A DNA stretch of 64,000 nucleotides, taken from Streptomyces sp. NP160 (GTDB taxonomy: Bacteria > Actinomycetota > Actinomycetes > Actinomycetales > Quadrisphaeraceae). A program made the position numbers and the translations under genes. Numbering within the stretch: position 1 is the stretch's first letter; each line of letters opens with the position of its first letter. Under the pieces are notes generated by a model, which saw only the letters and a program-made list of their open reading frames with translations, had not been told where the DNA came from and did not search any database. This document shows, piece after piece, positions 52,690 through 58,123 of this stretch. Location: assembly GCF_006335115.1 (NCBI RefSeq), contig NZ_VDMJ01000005.1:130145-194144 (forward strand), in the 5' to 3' direction.

Positions 52690-52959
52690 CGCACCGCCGA
52701 CCCACCGGTGACCTCGCGGTGTCCCACCGGTGACCCCCTGCTGGACCTGAGGGCACCGGTGGATCCCGCAGAGGGGACGGCCCGCGCGGCCCCACCGCCC
52801 GGCGAGTGGGCCCCGTGCCTGCGCGGGACACCCGCCGTGCCCCAGACTGCTCACAGGTCCGGGCCTGGCAGGCGCGACCCGCCGGTCCAGGACGGGGCGG
52901 CACAGGGCCCCGCGGTCAGCGCGAGCCGACGAGCGGGGGGTCCGGTGGAGGCTGGTCGA
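52690..52959. other. Noncoding leader with three CACCGGTG palindromes
   Basis: About 270 bp between the hypothetical gene and the multi-sensor phosphatase. The phosphatase frame is open across it, but its composition is not protein-like and it has no early ribosome site. The palindromes are listed separately. Confidence 0.5.
52703..52761. promoter_or_regulatory. Three CACCGGTG palindromes upstream of the phosphatase
   Basis: CACCGGTG occurs at 52703-52710, 52725-52732 and 52754-52761. The first two sit in a 13-bp direct repeat (CCCACCGGTGACC) with 22-bp spacing. This could be an operator array for the downstream gene. Confidence 0.4.
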
Positions 52960-55527
52960 GTGGCTGCCTGGCTCGAACGCGGTGGTGGTGCGCCCGCCGG
53001 TGGACCCGGGCCCGGTGGTGCGTCCGCGCAGGAGCCGTCCGCGCAGGAGCCGACCGGGCTGGACCGCCTGGCCGACCTCGCCGCACGGCTGGTCGGTGCG
53101 CCGTGGGCCCAGGTGTCCCTCGTGCACGACGACGTGCACGAGGTGGTGGGCTCCGCGGGCCGGCCGGCCGGGCTCGCGGCGCGCCGCGCGGACCGCGCCG
53201 AGGACACCCTGTGCGAGCTGGTCGTCGTGGACGGACGGGTGGTCGCGGTGGAGGACGCCGCCGCCGACGCCCGCACCGCCGACCGGCCGGGGGTGGCGGC
53301 CGGGCTGGTCGGCTCCTACCTGGGCGTGCCCCTGGTCCACGGCGGACGCACCGCGGGCGTGCTGTGCGCCTACGGCCCCGAGCCCCGGCGCTGGGAGGAG
53401 CACGAGGTCGAGGCCCTCGTCCACCTCGCCGCCAGCGCCGCGGCGGAGCTCGAGCTGGATCGCATCGCCGCGGAGATGGAGCGCAGCCGGCTGCGCGTCC
53501 AGCTGGCCGTCGACGCCGCCGGCGTGGGCAGCTTCGACTGGGACCTCCTCACCGGCGACCTCGAGTGGGACGACCGCCTCCTGGAGGTGTTCGGCCTGGA
53601 CCGCGACTCCTTCGGAGGCACCATCGAGGCCTTCAACTCCTGCCTGCACCCCGACGACCTCGACCGCGTCTCGGCCGCGCTGCGTCACTCGATCGACACC
53701 TGCGGGGAGTACGAGGCGGAGTACCGGGTGGTCCGGCCGGGCGGCGAGGTGCGCTGGGTGCAGGCCCGCGGCCGCACTCTGCGCGACCAGGAGGGGCGGG
53801 CAGCGCGCGTGGTGGGAGCCGCCTTCGACACCACCGACGTCCACGAGGGCGAGGCGCGCGTGGGCCGCGTGCTCGAGAGCATGTCGGCCGCCTTCTACAG
53901 CCTCGACGCCGCGTTCCGCTTCACCTACGTCAACGCCGAGGCCGAGCGCCTGCTGGGCCGGCCGCGCGGCGAGCTGCTCGGCGGGTCCCTGTGGGAGCTG
54001 TTCCCCGCCGCGGTCGGCGGCGACTTCGAGCACCACTACCGGGCGGCGGTCAGCAGCGGGCAGCCCCGCACCTTCGAGGCCCACTACCCGCCGCCGCTGG
54101 ACGGCTGGTACGAGGTGCGGGTCTGGCCCGCTCCGGACGGGCTGTCCGTGTACTTCCTCGAGATCACCGAGCGGCGCCGCGCGCAGGAGCGCGCCGACGC
54201 GGCCGCAGCCCAGCTCGCGCTGCTCGCCCGCACCACCGAGCAGCTGACCGAGGTGCTGGACGGCCGCACGGCGGTCGCCCGGCTCGCCGCGCTCGTGGTC
54301 CCGGCGCTCGCCGACTGGTCGGTGGTCTCGCTGGTGGAGGACGGCGGCGCCCTGCGCGACGTGGGCTGGGCGCACCGCGACCCGGACCTCGTGCCGCTGG
54401 TCGAGCGCTACGCCGCCTGCCGGTCCCGCGGCCTCAGGGACACCTCCCCGCTCCTGCGGGCGCTGGCGAGCGGGGAGCCCCAGCTCGTCGAGCGCGACGC
54501 CGCCGCCGCGGTCCGTGAGGCGCTGGGCGACGAGCAGGCGCGGCGCCTGGTGCTCGAGCTGGCGCCCGGGGCGCTGTGCGTCCTGCCCCTGACGGCCCAC
54601 GGCCGCACGCTCGGCGCGCTCTCGCTGTTCTGGGACCCGCAGCGGGGGGCGCCGGGCGCGGACGACCTCGCCACCGCCCGGGAGGTCGCCTCGCGCGCCG
54701 GCTCCGCCCTGGAGAACGCACGCCTCTACGAGCGCCAGCGCGAGCTGGCCGAAGAGCTCCAGCGCAGCCTGCTCACCGCACCGCCGGAGCCCGACCACCT
54801 CGAGGTCGTGGTGCGCTACCTGCCGGCCGGTGTGGCCGCGCAGGTGGGAGGCGACTGGTACGACTCGTTCCTGCAGCCGGACGGCGCCACCGTCGTCGTC
54901 ATCGGGGACGTCATCGGGCACGACACCGCGGCGGCAGCCGCCATGGGGCAGCTGCGCGGGCTGCTGCGCGGCATCGCCTACACCACCGGGGCGGGGCCCG
55001 CGGAGGTGCTCGAGCGCCTCGACGCCGCCATCCCGGGCCTGATGGTGTCCACCACGGCGACGGCGGCGGTGCTGCGGCTCGAGCAGGGCGAGCGGGAGGG
55101 CGCTGCGGCCACGACCGCGCTCCGGTGGTCCAGCGCCGGCCACCCCCCGCCGCTCGTCCTGCACCCCGACGGCTCGGTGACCGCGCTCGAAGCCGAAGAG
55201 GCCGACCTGCTGCTGGGCATCGACCCGGGGGTGGTCCGCCAGGAGCGCGTCGAGCAGGTGGAGCGCGGCTGCACCGTGCTCCTGTACACCGACGGGCTCG
55301 TGGAGCGTCGCGGGCAGTCGCTCGACGACGGGCTGGACCGCCTCGGCCGGCTGCTCGCCGAGCTGGGGCACCTGCCCCTCCAGGAGCTGTGCGACCAGCT
55401 GCTCCGCGTGCTGGTGTGCGATCAGCCGGAGGACGACGTGGCCGTGGTCGCGGTCCGCCTCCACCCGGAGGACCGCCCGCGCCCCGCGGAGGCAGGGCCC
55501 CAGCGCGTGCCGCCCGCCCTGGCCTGA
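52960..55527 (+). CDS. Multi-sensor PP2C/SpoIIE phosphatase (GAF-PAS-PAS-GAF)
   Basis: An 855-aa cytosolic phosphatase. Order: GAF (about 25-165), PAS of the PAS_3 type with WDLLTGDLEWDDRLLEVFG (about 180-300), a second PAS (about 305-410), a second GAF (about 420-580), and a SpoIIE/PP2C domain (about 595-830) with GGDWYDSF, VIGDVIGHD, WSSAGHPPPLVL, LYTDGLVERRG and PEDDVAVVA. Such enzymes remove phosphate from STAS anti-anti-sigma factors. GTG 52960 follows GGAGG at eight bases; GTG 52945 is an alternative. Neither PAS has the LOV cysteine, so its signals differ from those of the LOV phosphatase near 27 kb. Confidence 0.9.
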   Translation: MAAWLERGGGAPAGGPGPGGASAQEPSAQEPTGLDRLADLAARLVGAPWAQVSLVHDDVHEVVGSAGRPAGLAARRADRAEDTLCELVVVDGRVVAVEDAAADARTADRPGVAAGLVGSYLGVPLVHGGRTAGVLCAYGPEPRRWEEHEVEALVHLAASAAAELELDRIAAEMERSRLRVQLAVDAAGVGSFDWDLLTGDLEWDDRLLEVFGLDRDSFGGTIEAFNSCLHPDDLDRVSAALRHSIDTCGEYEAEYRVVRPGGEVRWVQARGRTLRDQEGRAARVVGAAFDTTDVHEGEARVGRVLESMSAAFYSLDAAFRFTYVNAEAERLLGRPRGELLGGSLWELFPAAVGGDFEHHYRAAVSSGQPRTFEAHYPPPLDGWYEVRVWPAPDGLSVYFLEITERRRAQERADAAAAQLALLARTTEQLTEVLDGRTAVARLAALVVPALADWSVVSLVEDGGALRDVGWAHRDPDLVPLVERYAACRSRGLRDTSPLLRALASGEPQLVERDAAAAVREALGDEQARRLVLELAPGALCVLPLTAHGRTLGALSLFWDPQRGAPGADDLATAREVASRAGSALENARLYERQRELAEELQRSLLTAPPEPDHLEVVVRYLPAGVAAQVGGDWYDSFLQPDGATVVVIGDVIGHDTAAAAAMGQLRGLLRGIAYTTGAGPAEVLERLDAAIPGLMVSTTATAAVLRLEQGEREGAAATTALRWSSAGHPPPLVLHPDGSVTALEAEEADLLLGIDPGVVRQERVEQVERGCTVLLYTDGLVERRGQSLDDGLDRLGRLLAELGHLPLQELCDQLLRVLVCDQPEDDVAVVAVRLHPEDRPRPAEAGPQRVPPALA

Positions 55528-55544: not shown

Positions 55545-56477
55545 TCAGGCCGCGGGGGTCGCCCCGAGCGCCAAGACCACCCGGAACAGCGAGCGGGGGT
55601 CCTGCAGCTGCGCCGGCCTGGCGAGGGCCGCCCGCGGGACCACGTCCACCCAGCGGACGGCGCGGCGGTGGGGGACCAGCGCGCCGCTGCCCGCGAAGGC
55701 GTACTCGCCGGTGACCTCCCCGAGCAGGAGCGACCTGCCCTCCTGGACCGGCACGGCCACCTCGTCGCCCACGGCCACCTCGGAGACCAGCGCCTCCAGC
55801 TGGCGCAGGGCCTTGCCGGGCCGGCGCTTGACGCCGGTGGCCTCGGCGCGCTCGGCGAGCAGCGCGCGCAGGCCGCCGTCCGCGGGCCCCAGGTCGGCCG
55901 GGACGTCGATGCCGCTGCTCGTGTCGAGCCCGACCACCCCCCGGTCGACCAGCAGGCCCAGGGTCGTCGGGTCGGCGGCGCGCACCACCCACAGGGCCCG
56001 CCCCGGCACCGCGGGCCGCTCCGGCACGTCGTCGGCGCCGGGCCAGACGTACTCCAGGTCGTCCTGCAGGCCGGCCTCGAAGCGCCCGCCGTAGAAGCCC
56101 GGGTCCTTGCGCAGCAGGTTGGACCGGTGCGAGCGGTGCAGCGGCTCCAGGCCGAGCCACGAGGGCAGCTGCGCGGAGGCGGCGAGCTCCTCCTGGGAGG
56201 AACCGGCGGCGTCGGGGGCGAACTCGGCGATCTGCGCCGCCGTGGAGTCGGCGTGCCCCCGGGAGGTCCACTCCCGCACGCAGGCCAGTCCGTAGCAGAC
56301 GAGGGCGGGGGTGCGGCCCCGCCACATGGCCACCACCGGGTGGCTGCTCCAGCCGTACTCCGGCAGCTCGAGGGCCCGCAGCACCTGCAGCACCTCCACC
56401 CTCTGCTTGCCCAGGCGCGGCGCGTCGAGGACGGCGGCGCTCTCGGCGAAGCCCGGGAAGGGCAGGAAGGTCTGCAC
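55545..56477 (-). CDS. MSMEG_6728-type glycosylase-like protein fused to an Mrr-N-like domain
   Basis: A 310-aa protein in two parts. Residues 1-150 match the MSMEG_6728/pyrimidine-dimer DNA glycosylase family: QTFLPFPGFAESAAVLDAPR, LGKQRVEVLQVLRAL, and the conserved HRSHRSNLLRKDPGFYGGRF. Residues about 158-306 resemble the N-terminal domain of Mrr-type restriction proteins: ALWVVRAADPTTLGLLVDRGVV, GKALRQLEALVSEVAVGDEV, LLLGEVTGEYAF and VRWVDVVPRAAL. In those proteins this module precedes the nuclease and is thought to sense DNA. GTG 56477 is preceded by a terminator, so the gene is its own unit. A DNA repair or modified-DNA role is inferred. Confidence 0.7.
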   Translation of the reverse strand: MQTFLPFPGFAESAAVLDAPRLGKQRVEVLQVLRALELPEYGWSSHPVVAMWRGRTPALVCYGLACVREWTSRGHADSTAAQIAEFAPDAAGSSQEELAASAQLPSWLGLEPLHRSHRSNLLRKDPGFYGGRFEAGLQDDLEYVWPGADDVPERPAVPGRALWVVRAADPTTLGLLVDRGVVGLDTSSGIDVPADLGPADGGLRALLAERAEATGVKRRPGKALRQLEALVSEVAVGDEVAVPVQEGRSLLLGEVTGEYAFAGSGALVPHRRAVRWVDVVPRAALARPAQLQDPRSLFRVVLALGATPAA

Positions 56478-56517
56478 GCCGGATCGGTCCTCGCTGGTGG
56501 TGGTGCGGGTGGTGCGG

Positions 56518-56550
56518 GCGCCGCAGCCCCTCGGGGAGCGGCTGCGGCGC
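56518..56550 (-). terminator. Terminator of the small hypothetical pair
   Basis: GCGCCGCAGCC and GGCTGCGGCGC (11 bp) enclose an inner CCTC/GGGG pairing, just past the stop of the 82-residue gene. Confidence 0.65.
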
Positions 56551-56558
56551 GGGTGGCG

Positions 56559-56807
56559 CTACTGCGCCCGGTGCCCCTCCGGCTCCTCCTCGGCGGGCTC
56601 GGACAGCCGGCCGGTCGCGTCCATCACCTGGCCCGTCTCGTCCTGGTCGTCGGAGACCACGCGGACCTCGTCGGGCACGGAGTTCACGCCCATCGCCGCG
56701 GCGATGTCGGCCTCGCTGACCTCGGGCAGGCCCGCGGTGGGGTCCTCGTCGGTGCCGGTGCCCAGGGGGGTGGCGGCGTCGCTGCTCGTGCGGTCCTGCT
56801 GGCTCAT
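56559..56807 (-). CDS. Small acidic hypothetical protein
   Basis: I do not recognise this 82-aa protein. It is strongly acidic (many Asp/Glu), with a central VSEADIAAAMGVNSVPDEVRVV and disordered ends; no membrane segment. Its ATG 56807 shares one base with the TGA of the upstream 96-residue gene (TGATG), so translation is coupled. The composition suggests a binding partner or a stress-accumulated disordered protein, but nothing specific. Confidence 0.6.
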   Translation of the reverse strand: MSQQDRTSSDAATPLGTGTDEDPTAGLPEVSEADIAAAMGVNSVPDEVRVVSDDQDETGQVMDATGRLSEPAEEEPEGHRAQ

Positions 56808-57097
56808 CAGCTCTCCTCGCGGGTCTTCTCGTGCGCGTTGCCGGCGGTCTCCTCGAGCGGCGCGTCCACGCCCAGCTCCCGGTCGACCACCACGTGCCGG
56901 CCCTGGCTCACCTCAGCGGCGGTGTCGTCCACCCACTTCTGCGGCTGCTCGGGGAAGCCGCGCTCCGCGATCCGGCGCGCGAGCGCCTCGCGCACGACGT
57001 CGACGTCGTCACCGCCGTGGTCGGCGTGGACCTCGGAGACGATCTGCTGCAGCAGGACCTGGCGGTCGTGCTGCGCCTCGGGAGCGGGTTCCGGCAT
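56807..57097 (-). CDS. Small acidic helical hypothetical protein
   Basis: A 96-aa protein I cannot name. A predicted helical core, RQVLLQQIVSEVHADHGG and VDVVREALARRIAERGF, is followed by PEQPQKWVDDTAAEVSQGRH and an acidic tail. ATG 57097 is used. It is coupled to the next gene by a TGATG overlap and divergent from the sigma factor gene 213 bp away, so it may belong to the same stress programme (inference). Confidence 0.6.
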   Translation of the reverse strand: MPEPAPEAQHDRQVLLQQIVSEVHADHGGDDVDVVREALARRIAERGFPEQPQKWVDDTAAEVSQGRHVVVDRELGVDAPLEETAGNAHEKTREES

Positions 57098-57310
57098 GCG
57101 CCCTGCCTACCACCGGGGAGACGGCCGGACCACTCCTGCTGGACCGGTCGTTGAACCACTCCTGGCTCGGCTTGCCGGGGGTGCGGGGCGGTGTTGTGCT
57201 GGTCCGCGTCCCGGAGGCTCGAGCCCGGTGGTGCCCTCGGGCGGCCGCCCGCCCGGCCTCGGGACGACCGCGCCCGTGCGGCGAACGACGCGAGAGCACA
57301 GGAGCCTTCG

Positions 57311-58123
57311 ATGACCGCGTCCGTCGACGCCCCCGCGGCCCGCACCGAGGGGGTGGGCAGCGCGCGCGAGCAGGCCACCGAGGACCTCCTGCTGCGCGCC
57401 TCCACCGCTGCGCCGCAGGAGCGCGCCCGCCTGCTCGACGAGGTCGTCGTCCTCAACCTCCCCGTGGCGCGCGCCCTCGCGGCGCGCTTCCGCGACCGCG
57501 GAGAGCAGCAGGACGACCTCGTGCAGGTCGCGTCCCTCGCGCTGGTCAAGGCCGCCCAGGGCTACCAGCCGGGGAAGGGCCGCGGCTTCCTGCCCTACGC
57601 CGTGCCCACCATCACCGGGGAGCTGCGCCGCCACTTCCGCGACCGCCAGTGGGGCGTTCGACCGCCGCGCCGGCTCCAGGAGCTGCGCCTGTCGCTGGGC
57701 GCCGCGGCCGCCGAGCTCACGCAGAAGATCGGACGCGCGCCGACGGTGCCCCAGCTGGCCGAGCACCTCGGGGTCGACCAGGAGGAGGTCATCGAGGCGC
57801 TGGCCGCGGCGCAGGACTACCACCTGGCCTCCCTCGACGCGCCCATGGACGGCGAGGCCGACGGCACGCCGCTGGGGGCCACCCTCGGCGGGGACGACGG
57901 CGCCATCGACAGGGTGGTCGACCACGTCAGCGTGGCGCCTCTGCTGGCGTCGCTGCCGGAGCGGGACCGCCGGATCCTGTCCCTGCGCTTCTTCCGCGGG
58001 TGGACGCAGAGCCAGATCGCCGCCGACATCGGCGTCACCCAGATGCAGGTGTCGCGGCTGCTCGCGCGCACGCTGGAGCGGCTGCGCAGCCAGCTGGAGG
58101 ACCCCGAGGCCGAGGCCGCCTGA
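57311..58123 (+). CDS. SigB/SigF/SigG-family RNA polymerase sigma factor
   Basis: A 270-aa group 3 sigma factor. Region 2 (about 45-115) has DLVQVASLALVKAAQGYQPGKG and FLPYAVPTITGELRRHFRD; region 3 spans about 120-180; region 4 (about 205-262) has SLPERDRRILSLRFFRGWTQSQIAADIGVTQMQVSRLLAR (shown here as the -10/-35 reading helices). ATG 57311 follows GGAG at seven bases. Sigma factors of this family direct general stress responses and are controlled by partner switching; no anti-sigma gene is adjacent. The SpoIIE phosphatases and STAS protein in the window could belong to the same circuit. Confidence 0.92.
   Translation: MTASVDAPAARTEGVGSAREQATEDLLLRASTAAPQERARLLDEVVVLNLPVARALAARFRDRGEQQDDLVQVASLALVKAAQGYQPGKGRGFLPYAVPTITGELRRHFRDRQWGVRPPRRLQELRLSLGAAAAELTQKIGRAPTVPQLAEHLGVDQEEVIEALAAAQDYHLASLDAPMDGEADGTPLGATLGGDDGAIDRVVDHVSVAPLLASLPERDRRILSLRFFRGWTQSQIAADIGVTQMQVSRLLARTLERLRSQLEDPEAEAA

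Follow-up and report, generated by a model that had tools for sequence, protein, structure and literature searches.

What would an actinobacterium do with a protein that joins, in a single chain, a domain resembling the pyrimidine-dimer glycosylases and a module like the one with which Mrr-like restriction proteins begin? The question is raised by a gene within a stretch of 64,000 nucleotides of Streptomyces sp. NP160 (contig NZ_VDMJ01000005.1, positions 130,145 to 194,144; the whole stretch is referred to here as the window). An earlier note, made by eye, had proposed this fusion and suggested that it could be a "self-contained device for finding and processing modified or damaged DNA". We have followed up the two domain assignments, the distribution of the fusion, its regulation and its neighbors. 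The picture obtained from sequence comparison is that of a predicted reader-plus-effector protein with a domain of the glycosylase superfamily as the effector. Our preferred reading, to which we would give slightly less than an even chance, is a stress-regulated base-excision enzyme that carries its own substrate reader.

The fusion gene and its surroundings

The open reading frame (55545-56477, minus strand) has 310 codons and a GTG start. The AlphaFold model of the whole protein has a mean pLDDT of 94.8 and a pTM of 0.89. Its features, with the basis of each in brackets, are as follows:

55545..56477, minus strand: two-domain MSMEG_6728 / COG4127-N fusion gene (open reading frame and translation; homologues align over both halves)
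56040..56477, minus strand: N domain, residues 1-146, assigned to the MSMEG_6728 family of the Pyr_excise superfamily (NF038085, PF03013, hhalign)
56475..56477, minus strand: start codon of Met1 (ATG or GTG at M-Q-T-F across homologues; a -10 box lies directly upstream in many relatives)
56394..56396, minus strand: codon of Glu28, the candidate catalytic acid (alignment through bacterial intermediates; invariance)
56007..56039, minus strand: linker, residues 147-157 (between the predicted domains; sequence and length vary in alignment A1)
55569..56006, minus strand: C domain, residues 158-303, COG4127/PDC-S02 N-terminal module with a predicted EVE/YTH-like fold (PDC-S02, hhalign, structure matches)
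56487..56492, minus strand: weak -10-like hexamer GAGGAC, putative (ends 9 nt before the start codon; compared by eye)

Tail-to-tail with the fusion gene lies a plus-strand ORF (52708-55527) for a PAS-containing protein of 939 residues, whose C-terminal end is, by eye, a PP2C-like (RsbU-type) region. On the other side, 0.7 kb away, a sigma factor of the SigB/SigF/SigG family is encoded at 57191-58123 on the plus strand (TIGR02980, 251.6 bits against a cut-off of 234), and a sigma factor of this family is also found beside the fusion gene in Quadrisphaera (L037). Together, the sigma factor and the PAS/PP2C-like protein have the appearance of a general-stress module. Between the sigma factor and the fusion gene there are two small minus-strand ORFs (56559-56807 and 56807-57097), neither of them with an NCBIfam match; L037 carries a homologue of the one at 56807-57097 in the corresponding position. 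The gap between the upstream small ORF and the fusion gene contains an inverted repeat (gccgcagcc...ggctgcggc, 56520-56548), seen by eye and possibly a terminator. Among the retrieved loci, the nearest from a named genome belongs to Quadrisphaera sp. INWT6, whose N domain is 77% identical.

The N-terminal domain and its link to T4 endonuclease V

The pattern of the MSMEG_6728 proteins and pyrimidine-dimer glycosylases that the earlier note had recognized by eye in the first half was recovered by two profile libraries. Residues 1-146 matched the NCBIfam model NF038085 (MSMEG_6728) with 211.1 bits (E 6.6e-63, model positions 1-148 of 149, cut-off 100 bits), and residues 1-79 matched Pfam PF03013 (Pyr_excise) with 66.8 bits (profile positions 1-77 of 81, gathering cut-off 23 bits), a profile that T4 denV itself matches with 53.3 bits. 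A direct hhalign comparison of the N-domain profile with T4 denV and five of its relatives was not significant (probability 0.1-1.6%), while with denV and bacterial intermediates combined the N-domain profile was found at 82.9%. The bridge consists of bacterial Pyr_excise (PDG-like) proteins of the same phylum, which start with M-R-[VILM]-W and most of which contain LLGEHRE or a similar motif. The MSMEG_6728 profile matched these proteins at 92-95% (best 95.1%), and they matched the T4 denV profile at 94.2%. By these profile comparisons the N domain is linked to T4 endonuclease V transitively, through bacterial intermediates, and the predicted membership in the Pyr_excise superfamily is well supported.

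Through the same intermediates Glu28 aligns (by alignment only) with the catalytic Glu23 of T4 endonuclease V. This residue is kept in 102/102 bacterial and viral homologues, a figure that is biased because the retrieval patterns (RLGKQRVE) contain the motif, and it is also invariant in the divergent set A6, to which tblastn contributed phage sequences that are 28-38% identical to the window protein. The start of the protein is likewise fixed, at the MQTFLP block, with ATG or GTG there in 80/80 bacterial and 78/80 viral loci. Such a fixed N terminus is the pattern expected of an enzyme that uses its N-terminal amine, and the mechanism of T4 endonuclease V relies on this amine plus an active-site glutamate (PMC3285167). 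In other respects the two proteins differ. Arg22 and Arg26 of the T4 enzyme have no equivalents in the fusion protein, since Val27 and Gln31 stand at these places in the profile alignment. Mature T4 endonuclease V begins at Thr2, whereas the fusion protein starts with Met1-Gln2, and the Gln after Met1 indicates that the Met is probably retained. There is also an extra block at the C-terminal side of the domain, HRSxLLRKDP, which with RLGKQRVE and HPxxxMW makes up the invariant blocks particular to the MSMEG_6728 family and absent from denV.

These differences give some room to the idea that the N domain is no longer a glycosylase, or never was one; the MSMEG_6728 family would have diverged from the pyrimidine-dimer glycosylases and would bind or process DNA differently, the reader serving as an accessory for binding. 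The lack of a direct profile match to T4 denV, the family-specific blocks and the lost arginine equivalents all fit with it, as do the structural searches, in which the N-domain model (pLDDT 95.1) found no meaningfully similar PDB structure with either Foldseek or VIA-align (no new fold is implied by this). Sequence searches of the PDB returned no relatives of the N domain. The literature that we searched contains no report of an activity for any member of the MSMEG_6728 family. On the other side, the Pfam Pyr_excise profile covers both families well above its cut-off, the bacterial intermediates connect them, and both the glutamate and the N terminus are constant. We consider this explanation unlikely, even if it survives best among the rivals; a glycosylase chemistry of the N domain is suggested by the transitive link to T4 endonuclease V and the invariant Glu28.

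The C-terminal domain as a putative base reader

The second half had been described in the earlier note as the module that opens Mrr-like restriction proteins. No Pfam family matched it at E<=10, the EVE and YTH families included. The PADLOC models PDC-S02, however, matched residues 203-290 (best E 3.8e-9, profile positions 43-126 of 346), and their matches to the C domain always fell within the N-terminal half of the models. In the reverse direction, a profile built from fused C domains found the N-terminal modules of PDC-S02 proteins (L118 at 6e-13 and L117 at 1.6e-8) as well as that of L015 (8e-12), a protein from the window's own bacterial family that PADLOC labels PDC-S14 and whose nuclease looks, by eye, of the GIY-YIG-like type. 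Profile-to-profile comparison of the C half with COG4127-type modules by hhalign gave a probability of 99.2% (E 1.7e-19). Taken with the scores of NF038085 and PF03013, these values indicate that both domain calls made by eye were right, far beyond what chance would give. We have identified the module as that of COG4127 because the Mrr partner is shared and PDC-S02 matches; a paper of 2005 described this N-terminal domain as having neither a known structure nor a known function, and mentioned members that carry another, unrelated domain (PMC1189080).

That the module precedes a nuclease in restriction systems, as the note had stated, could be seen in L118, an intact relative in which the mREase_IV model covers residues 193-326, downstream of the module. 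By eye, Mrr-type nucleases follow it in L117, L118 and L121, and in L122 the partner is another PD-(D/E)XK-like domain. It also stands ahead of the GTPase domain in McrB-like proteins of other actinobacteria (L124, L137; partner assigned by eye); its presence there suggests that Mrr- and McrB-type systems have a reader in common. In the window protein itself, none of the profile libraries searched found an Mrr/PD-(D/E)XK or other nuclease domain.

The absence of a match to Mrr-N/EVE-like folds, which the note had named as fatal to its view of this half, is not what prediction of the structure and the profile check returned. With VIA-align, the model of the C half was closest to 1wmm (Z 8.7 over 106 residues, 3.0 A), 2hd9 (8.5) and 2p5d (8.3), which we take to be EVE proteins, followed by 6yex, the EVE domain of VcaM4I (8.2), and then by YTH domains with Z up to 7.4 (YTHDF2, 7.4). 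The best 50 VIA-align matches were EVE or YTH entries, and the first 50 Foldseek matches were all YTH (top E 1.6e-3, probability 1.00). Since Z values around 8 hardly exceed what the tool calls common, the weight rests on the uniformity of these matches. Sequence searches of the PDB gave no relatives for the COG4127 modules and chance hits only for the fused C domain. The predicted structure thus places the C half in the EVE/YTH-like fold of the PUA superfamily, outside the Pfam EVE and YTH families. The label "Mrr-type N-terminal" accordingly stands in the sense of the COG4127-type module and has to be dropped in the sense of the Pfam winged-helix Mrr_N, which is ruled out by the absence of a hit and by the different fold.

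A function of the C half as a base reader would fit both the fold and the homologues. In VcaM4I, the EVE domain flips 5mC or 5hmC into a pocket that P24, W82 and Y130 line (PMC7897488), and the residues conserved in our alignments of the C domain are Trp163, Arg166, Arg272 and Phe298. The window protein resembles VcaM4I (EVE-HNH), and the YTH/EVE readers in general, in the predicted fold of this domain, and VcaM4I further in having a reader and a DNA-acting domain on one chain, although here the partner is not an HNH nuclease. From the COG4127 and PDC-S02 candidate type IV restriction proteins, whose N-terminal module is homologous, it differs in that the module is C-terminal and its partner is Pyr_excise instead of Mrr/PD-(D/E)XK, McrB or GIY-YIG-like.

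Distribution and history of the fusion

The survey of co-occurrence proposed in the earlier note showed that the fusion is not peculiar to the window, since both parts are present in 77/80 of the retrieved bacterial loci, those nearest to the query (a set biased towards its relatives). In 76 of these 80 loci the extension is intact and as long as in the fused form, and in L107 it is present but shifts frame at its end; of the other three, one is truncated by a contig end and two are single-domain genes. Within the window's bacterial family the gene was found in 11/13 genomes and was fused in 11/11, one of them cut inside the C domain by a contig end; across the phylum, 20/296 sampled genomes have the N family. 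A C-domain model trained on a subset of the tails recovered the domain in 61/65 of the others, including diverged forms from Arthrobacter and Microbacteriaceae, and the misses were three short single-domain tails and L031. The latter, from the same order, is extended at its C terminus by a similar length of sequence, in which the reader domain cannot be recognized.

When 101 N domains were placed in a tree, the sequences from fusions grouped in one clade (support 96/94) that also holds L031 and one single-domain sequence (Schumannella). The streptomycete-type single-domain proteins form another clade and the viral N domains lie outside. The fused state requires 2-3 changes on this tree, which is compatible with one gain and later losses, and on these grounds the fusion, which is spread across Actinomycetota, probably had a single origin. 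Comparisons within the genus gave dN/dS values of 0.21-0.28 for the N half and 0.08-0.19 for the C half, so that purifying selection acts on both. A chance or frame artefact is ruled out by the conservation across genera and by these values (0.08-0.28 overall). So is an ordinary single-domain family over the whole length, given that the NCBIfam model stops at residue 146 and that the C half forms a homologous domain of its own.

Relatives with the N domain only occur in Streptomyces and its relatives and in phages, and neither the 80 IMG/VR loci nor the annotated phages contained a fused form. The fusion protein is like the MSMEG_6728 family (NF038085, named after the M. smegmatis protein) along the full N domain, and many members of that family have a SigF-type -10 box upstream; the family model has only 149 positions, corresponding to this first part, and the single-domain members lack the reader. 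The open-access papers that we searched mention MSMEG_6728 in expression tables and contain no description of a fusion of a glycosylase domain with a reader. While the parts belong to known families, their combination appears to be undescribed.

Regulation, neighbors and the question of defense

A glimpse at the regulation of these genes was provided by their upstream regions. In 102 of them (from several families, and not phylogenetically independent), 18 starts of the pentamer GGGTA were counted in the bin from -20 to -11, and 14 of these were at precisely -15; the 28 more distant bins together had 15. Many SigF-dependent genes of M. smegmatis are listed with GGGTA as their -10 element, and the expression of MSMEG_6728 is strongly reduced in a sigF mutant of this organism (-5.57/-4.75; PMC4694148). 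The short distance to the start codon points to messages with no leader or hardly any. The window gene and those of Geodermatophilaceae are without GGGTA and have other -10-like hexamers at that place (by eye); at the position of GAGGAC in the window, related genomes have GAGGAT or GAAGAT, and others the SigF-type GGGTA at -15. The control by SigF stays putative in this genome because its gene has no GGGTA upstream.

Elsewhere, the neighbors of the fused genes are Sir2 deacylases (7/73 proteins scanned), SF2 helicases (5/73), one of which was examined and is weakly XPB-like, and mixed metabolic genes. PADLOC at E<=1e-15 picked out only PbeA (5 members), which probably are those same SF2 helicases, and one TAP-like protein; no defense-island context was seen around the bacterial fusions at this threshold.

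Stand-alone genes of the MSMEG_6728 type are very common in phage contigs, with at least 587 confirmed stretches in IMG/VR. The phage N-domain genes (L197-L276) adjoin genes for DNA ligase, helicase, primase, polymerase and UvsX, and some have base-modification genes nearby (glycosyltransferases, 2OG oxygenases, ADDT). In phage Cece, the homologue gp152 is located between tRNA genes and an RNA ligase.

A different role for the same two domains would be antiphage defense, in which the reader would find a hypermodified phage base and the N domain would excise it, a restriction by base removal. Defense has to be taken as a serious rival because the other partners of the module are candidate restriction proteins (Mrr, McrB and GIY-YIG-like) and because defense by glycosylases does exist in actinobacteria. 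Brig1, a glycosylase of the UDG superfamily, acts against phages on alpha-glucosyl-5hmC, and its homologues reside in defense islands (PMC11078745); the window protein would be analogous, with no homology claimed, if it excised modified bases as a defense. The surroundings of the fused genes, with Sir2, helicase and metabolic genes and almost no PADLOC hits, are of another kind. Besides, the gene is inherited in a mostly vertical manner according to the tree and is present in most genomes of the family (11/13), the SigF-type promoters point to general stress, and the actinophages themselves carry the N domain. We regard a defense function as rather unlikely. The context of restriction implicit in the earlier note is not favored for a conserved chromosomal gene that has a SigF-type promoter in many relatives and lacks defense-island neighbors, and what stands of its interpretation, on profile, profile-profile and structural grounds, is the union of a glycosylase-family domain with an Mrr-like module.

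That the target would be RNA instead of DNA (for example modified or damaged tRNA or mRNA) is improbable. It is true that YTH and many EVE/PUA-superfamily domains bind modified RNA, that the top Foldseek hits are YTH readers of RNA and that gp152 of Cece has RNA-related neighbors. On the other side, the partners of the homologous modules are nucleases of DNA restriction and ATPases of the McrB type, the characterized Pyr_excise relatives act on DNA and most of the identified phage neighbors are genes of DNA replication, repair or modification.

A proposed base-excision enzyme with its own reader

Coming back to the stress-regulated base-excision enzyme, a plausible course of events can be outlined. 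The EVE/YTH-like C domain would scan and bind DNA, and a damaged or modified base would be flipped into its pocket, as happens to 5mC and 5hmC with the related domain of VcaM4I. The Pyr_excise-type N domain would then attack at the site of the captured base, its free N-terminal amine forming an imine with the sugar and Glu28 acting as the acid/base. The base would be released, the strand possibly nicked and the site handed over to downstream repair. We infer in this way a DNA substrate, a glycosylase/lyase chemistry, the cooperation of the two domains and a role in repair and not in defense. The conservation on the chromosome and the stress-type promoters favor maintenance of the host DNA over antiphage defense. 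In a bolder form, a reader of type IV restriction would have been recruited to a repair-type glycosylase, induced by SigF under stress, that acts on one specific damaged or modified base for which no other enzyme is known, something that we see as possible and rather doubtful. The device for finding and processing DNA imagined in the earlier note stays a conjecture of the same sort.

The fusion unites two families neither of which has been characterized at the bench, the MSMEG_6728 proteins, which many actinobacteria possess and which abound in phage contigs, and the N-terminal domain of COG4127, whose function becomes directly testable with the predicted EVE/YTH fold. If the protein does excise a base, it would be an example of restriction and base-excision repair exchanging parts, with the sensor taken from the one and the catalyst from the other, and general-stress regulation in actinobacteria would have a new output in DNA repair.
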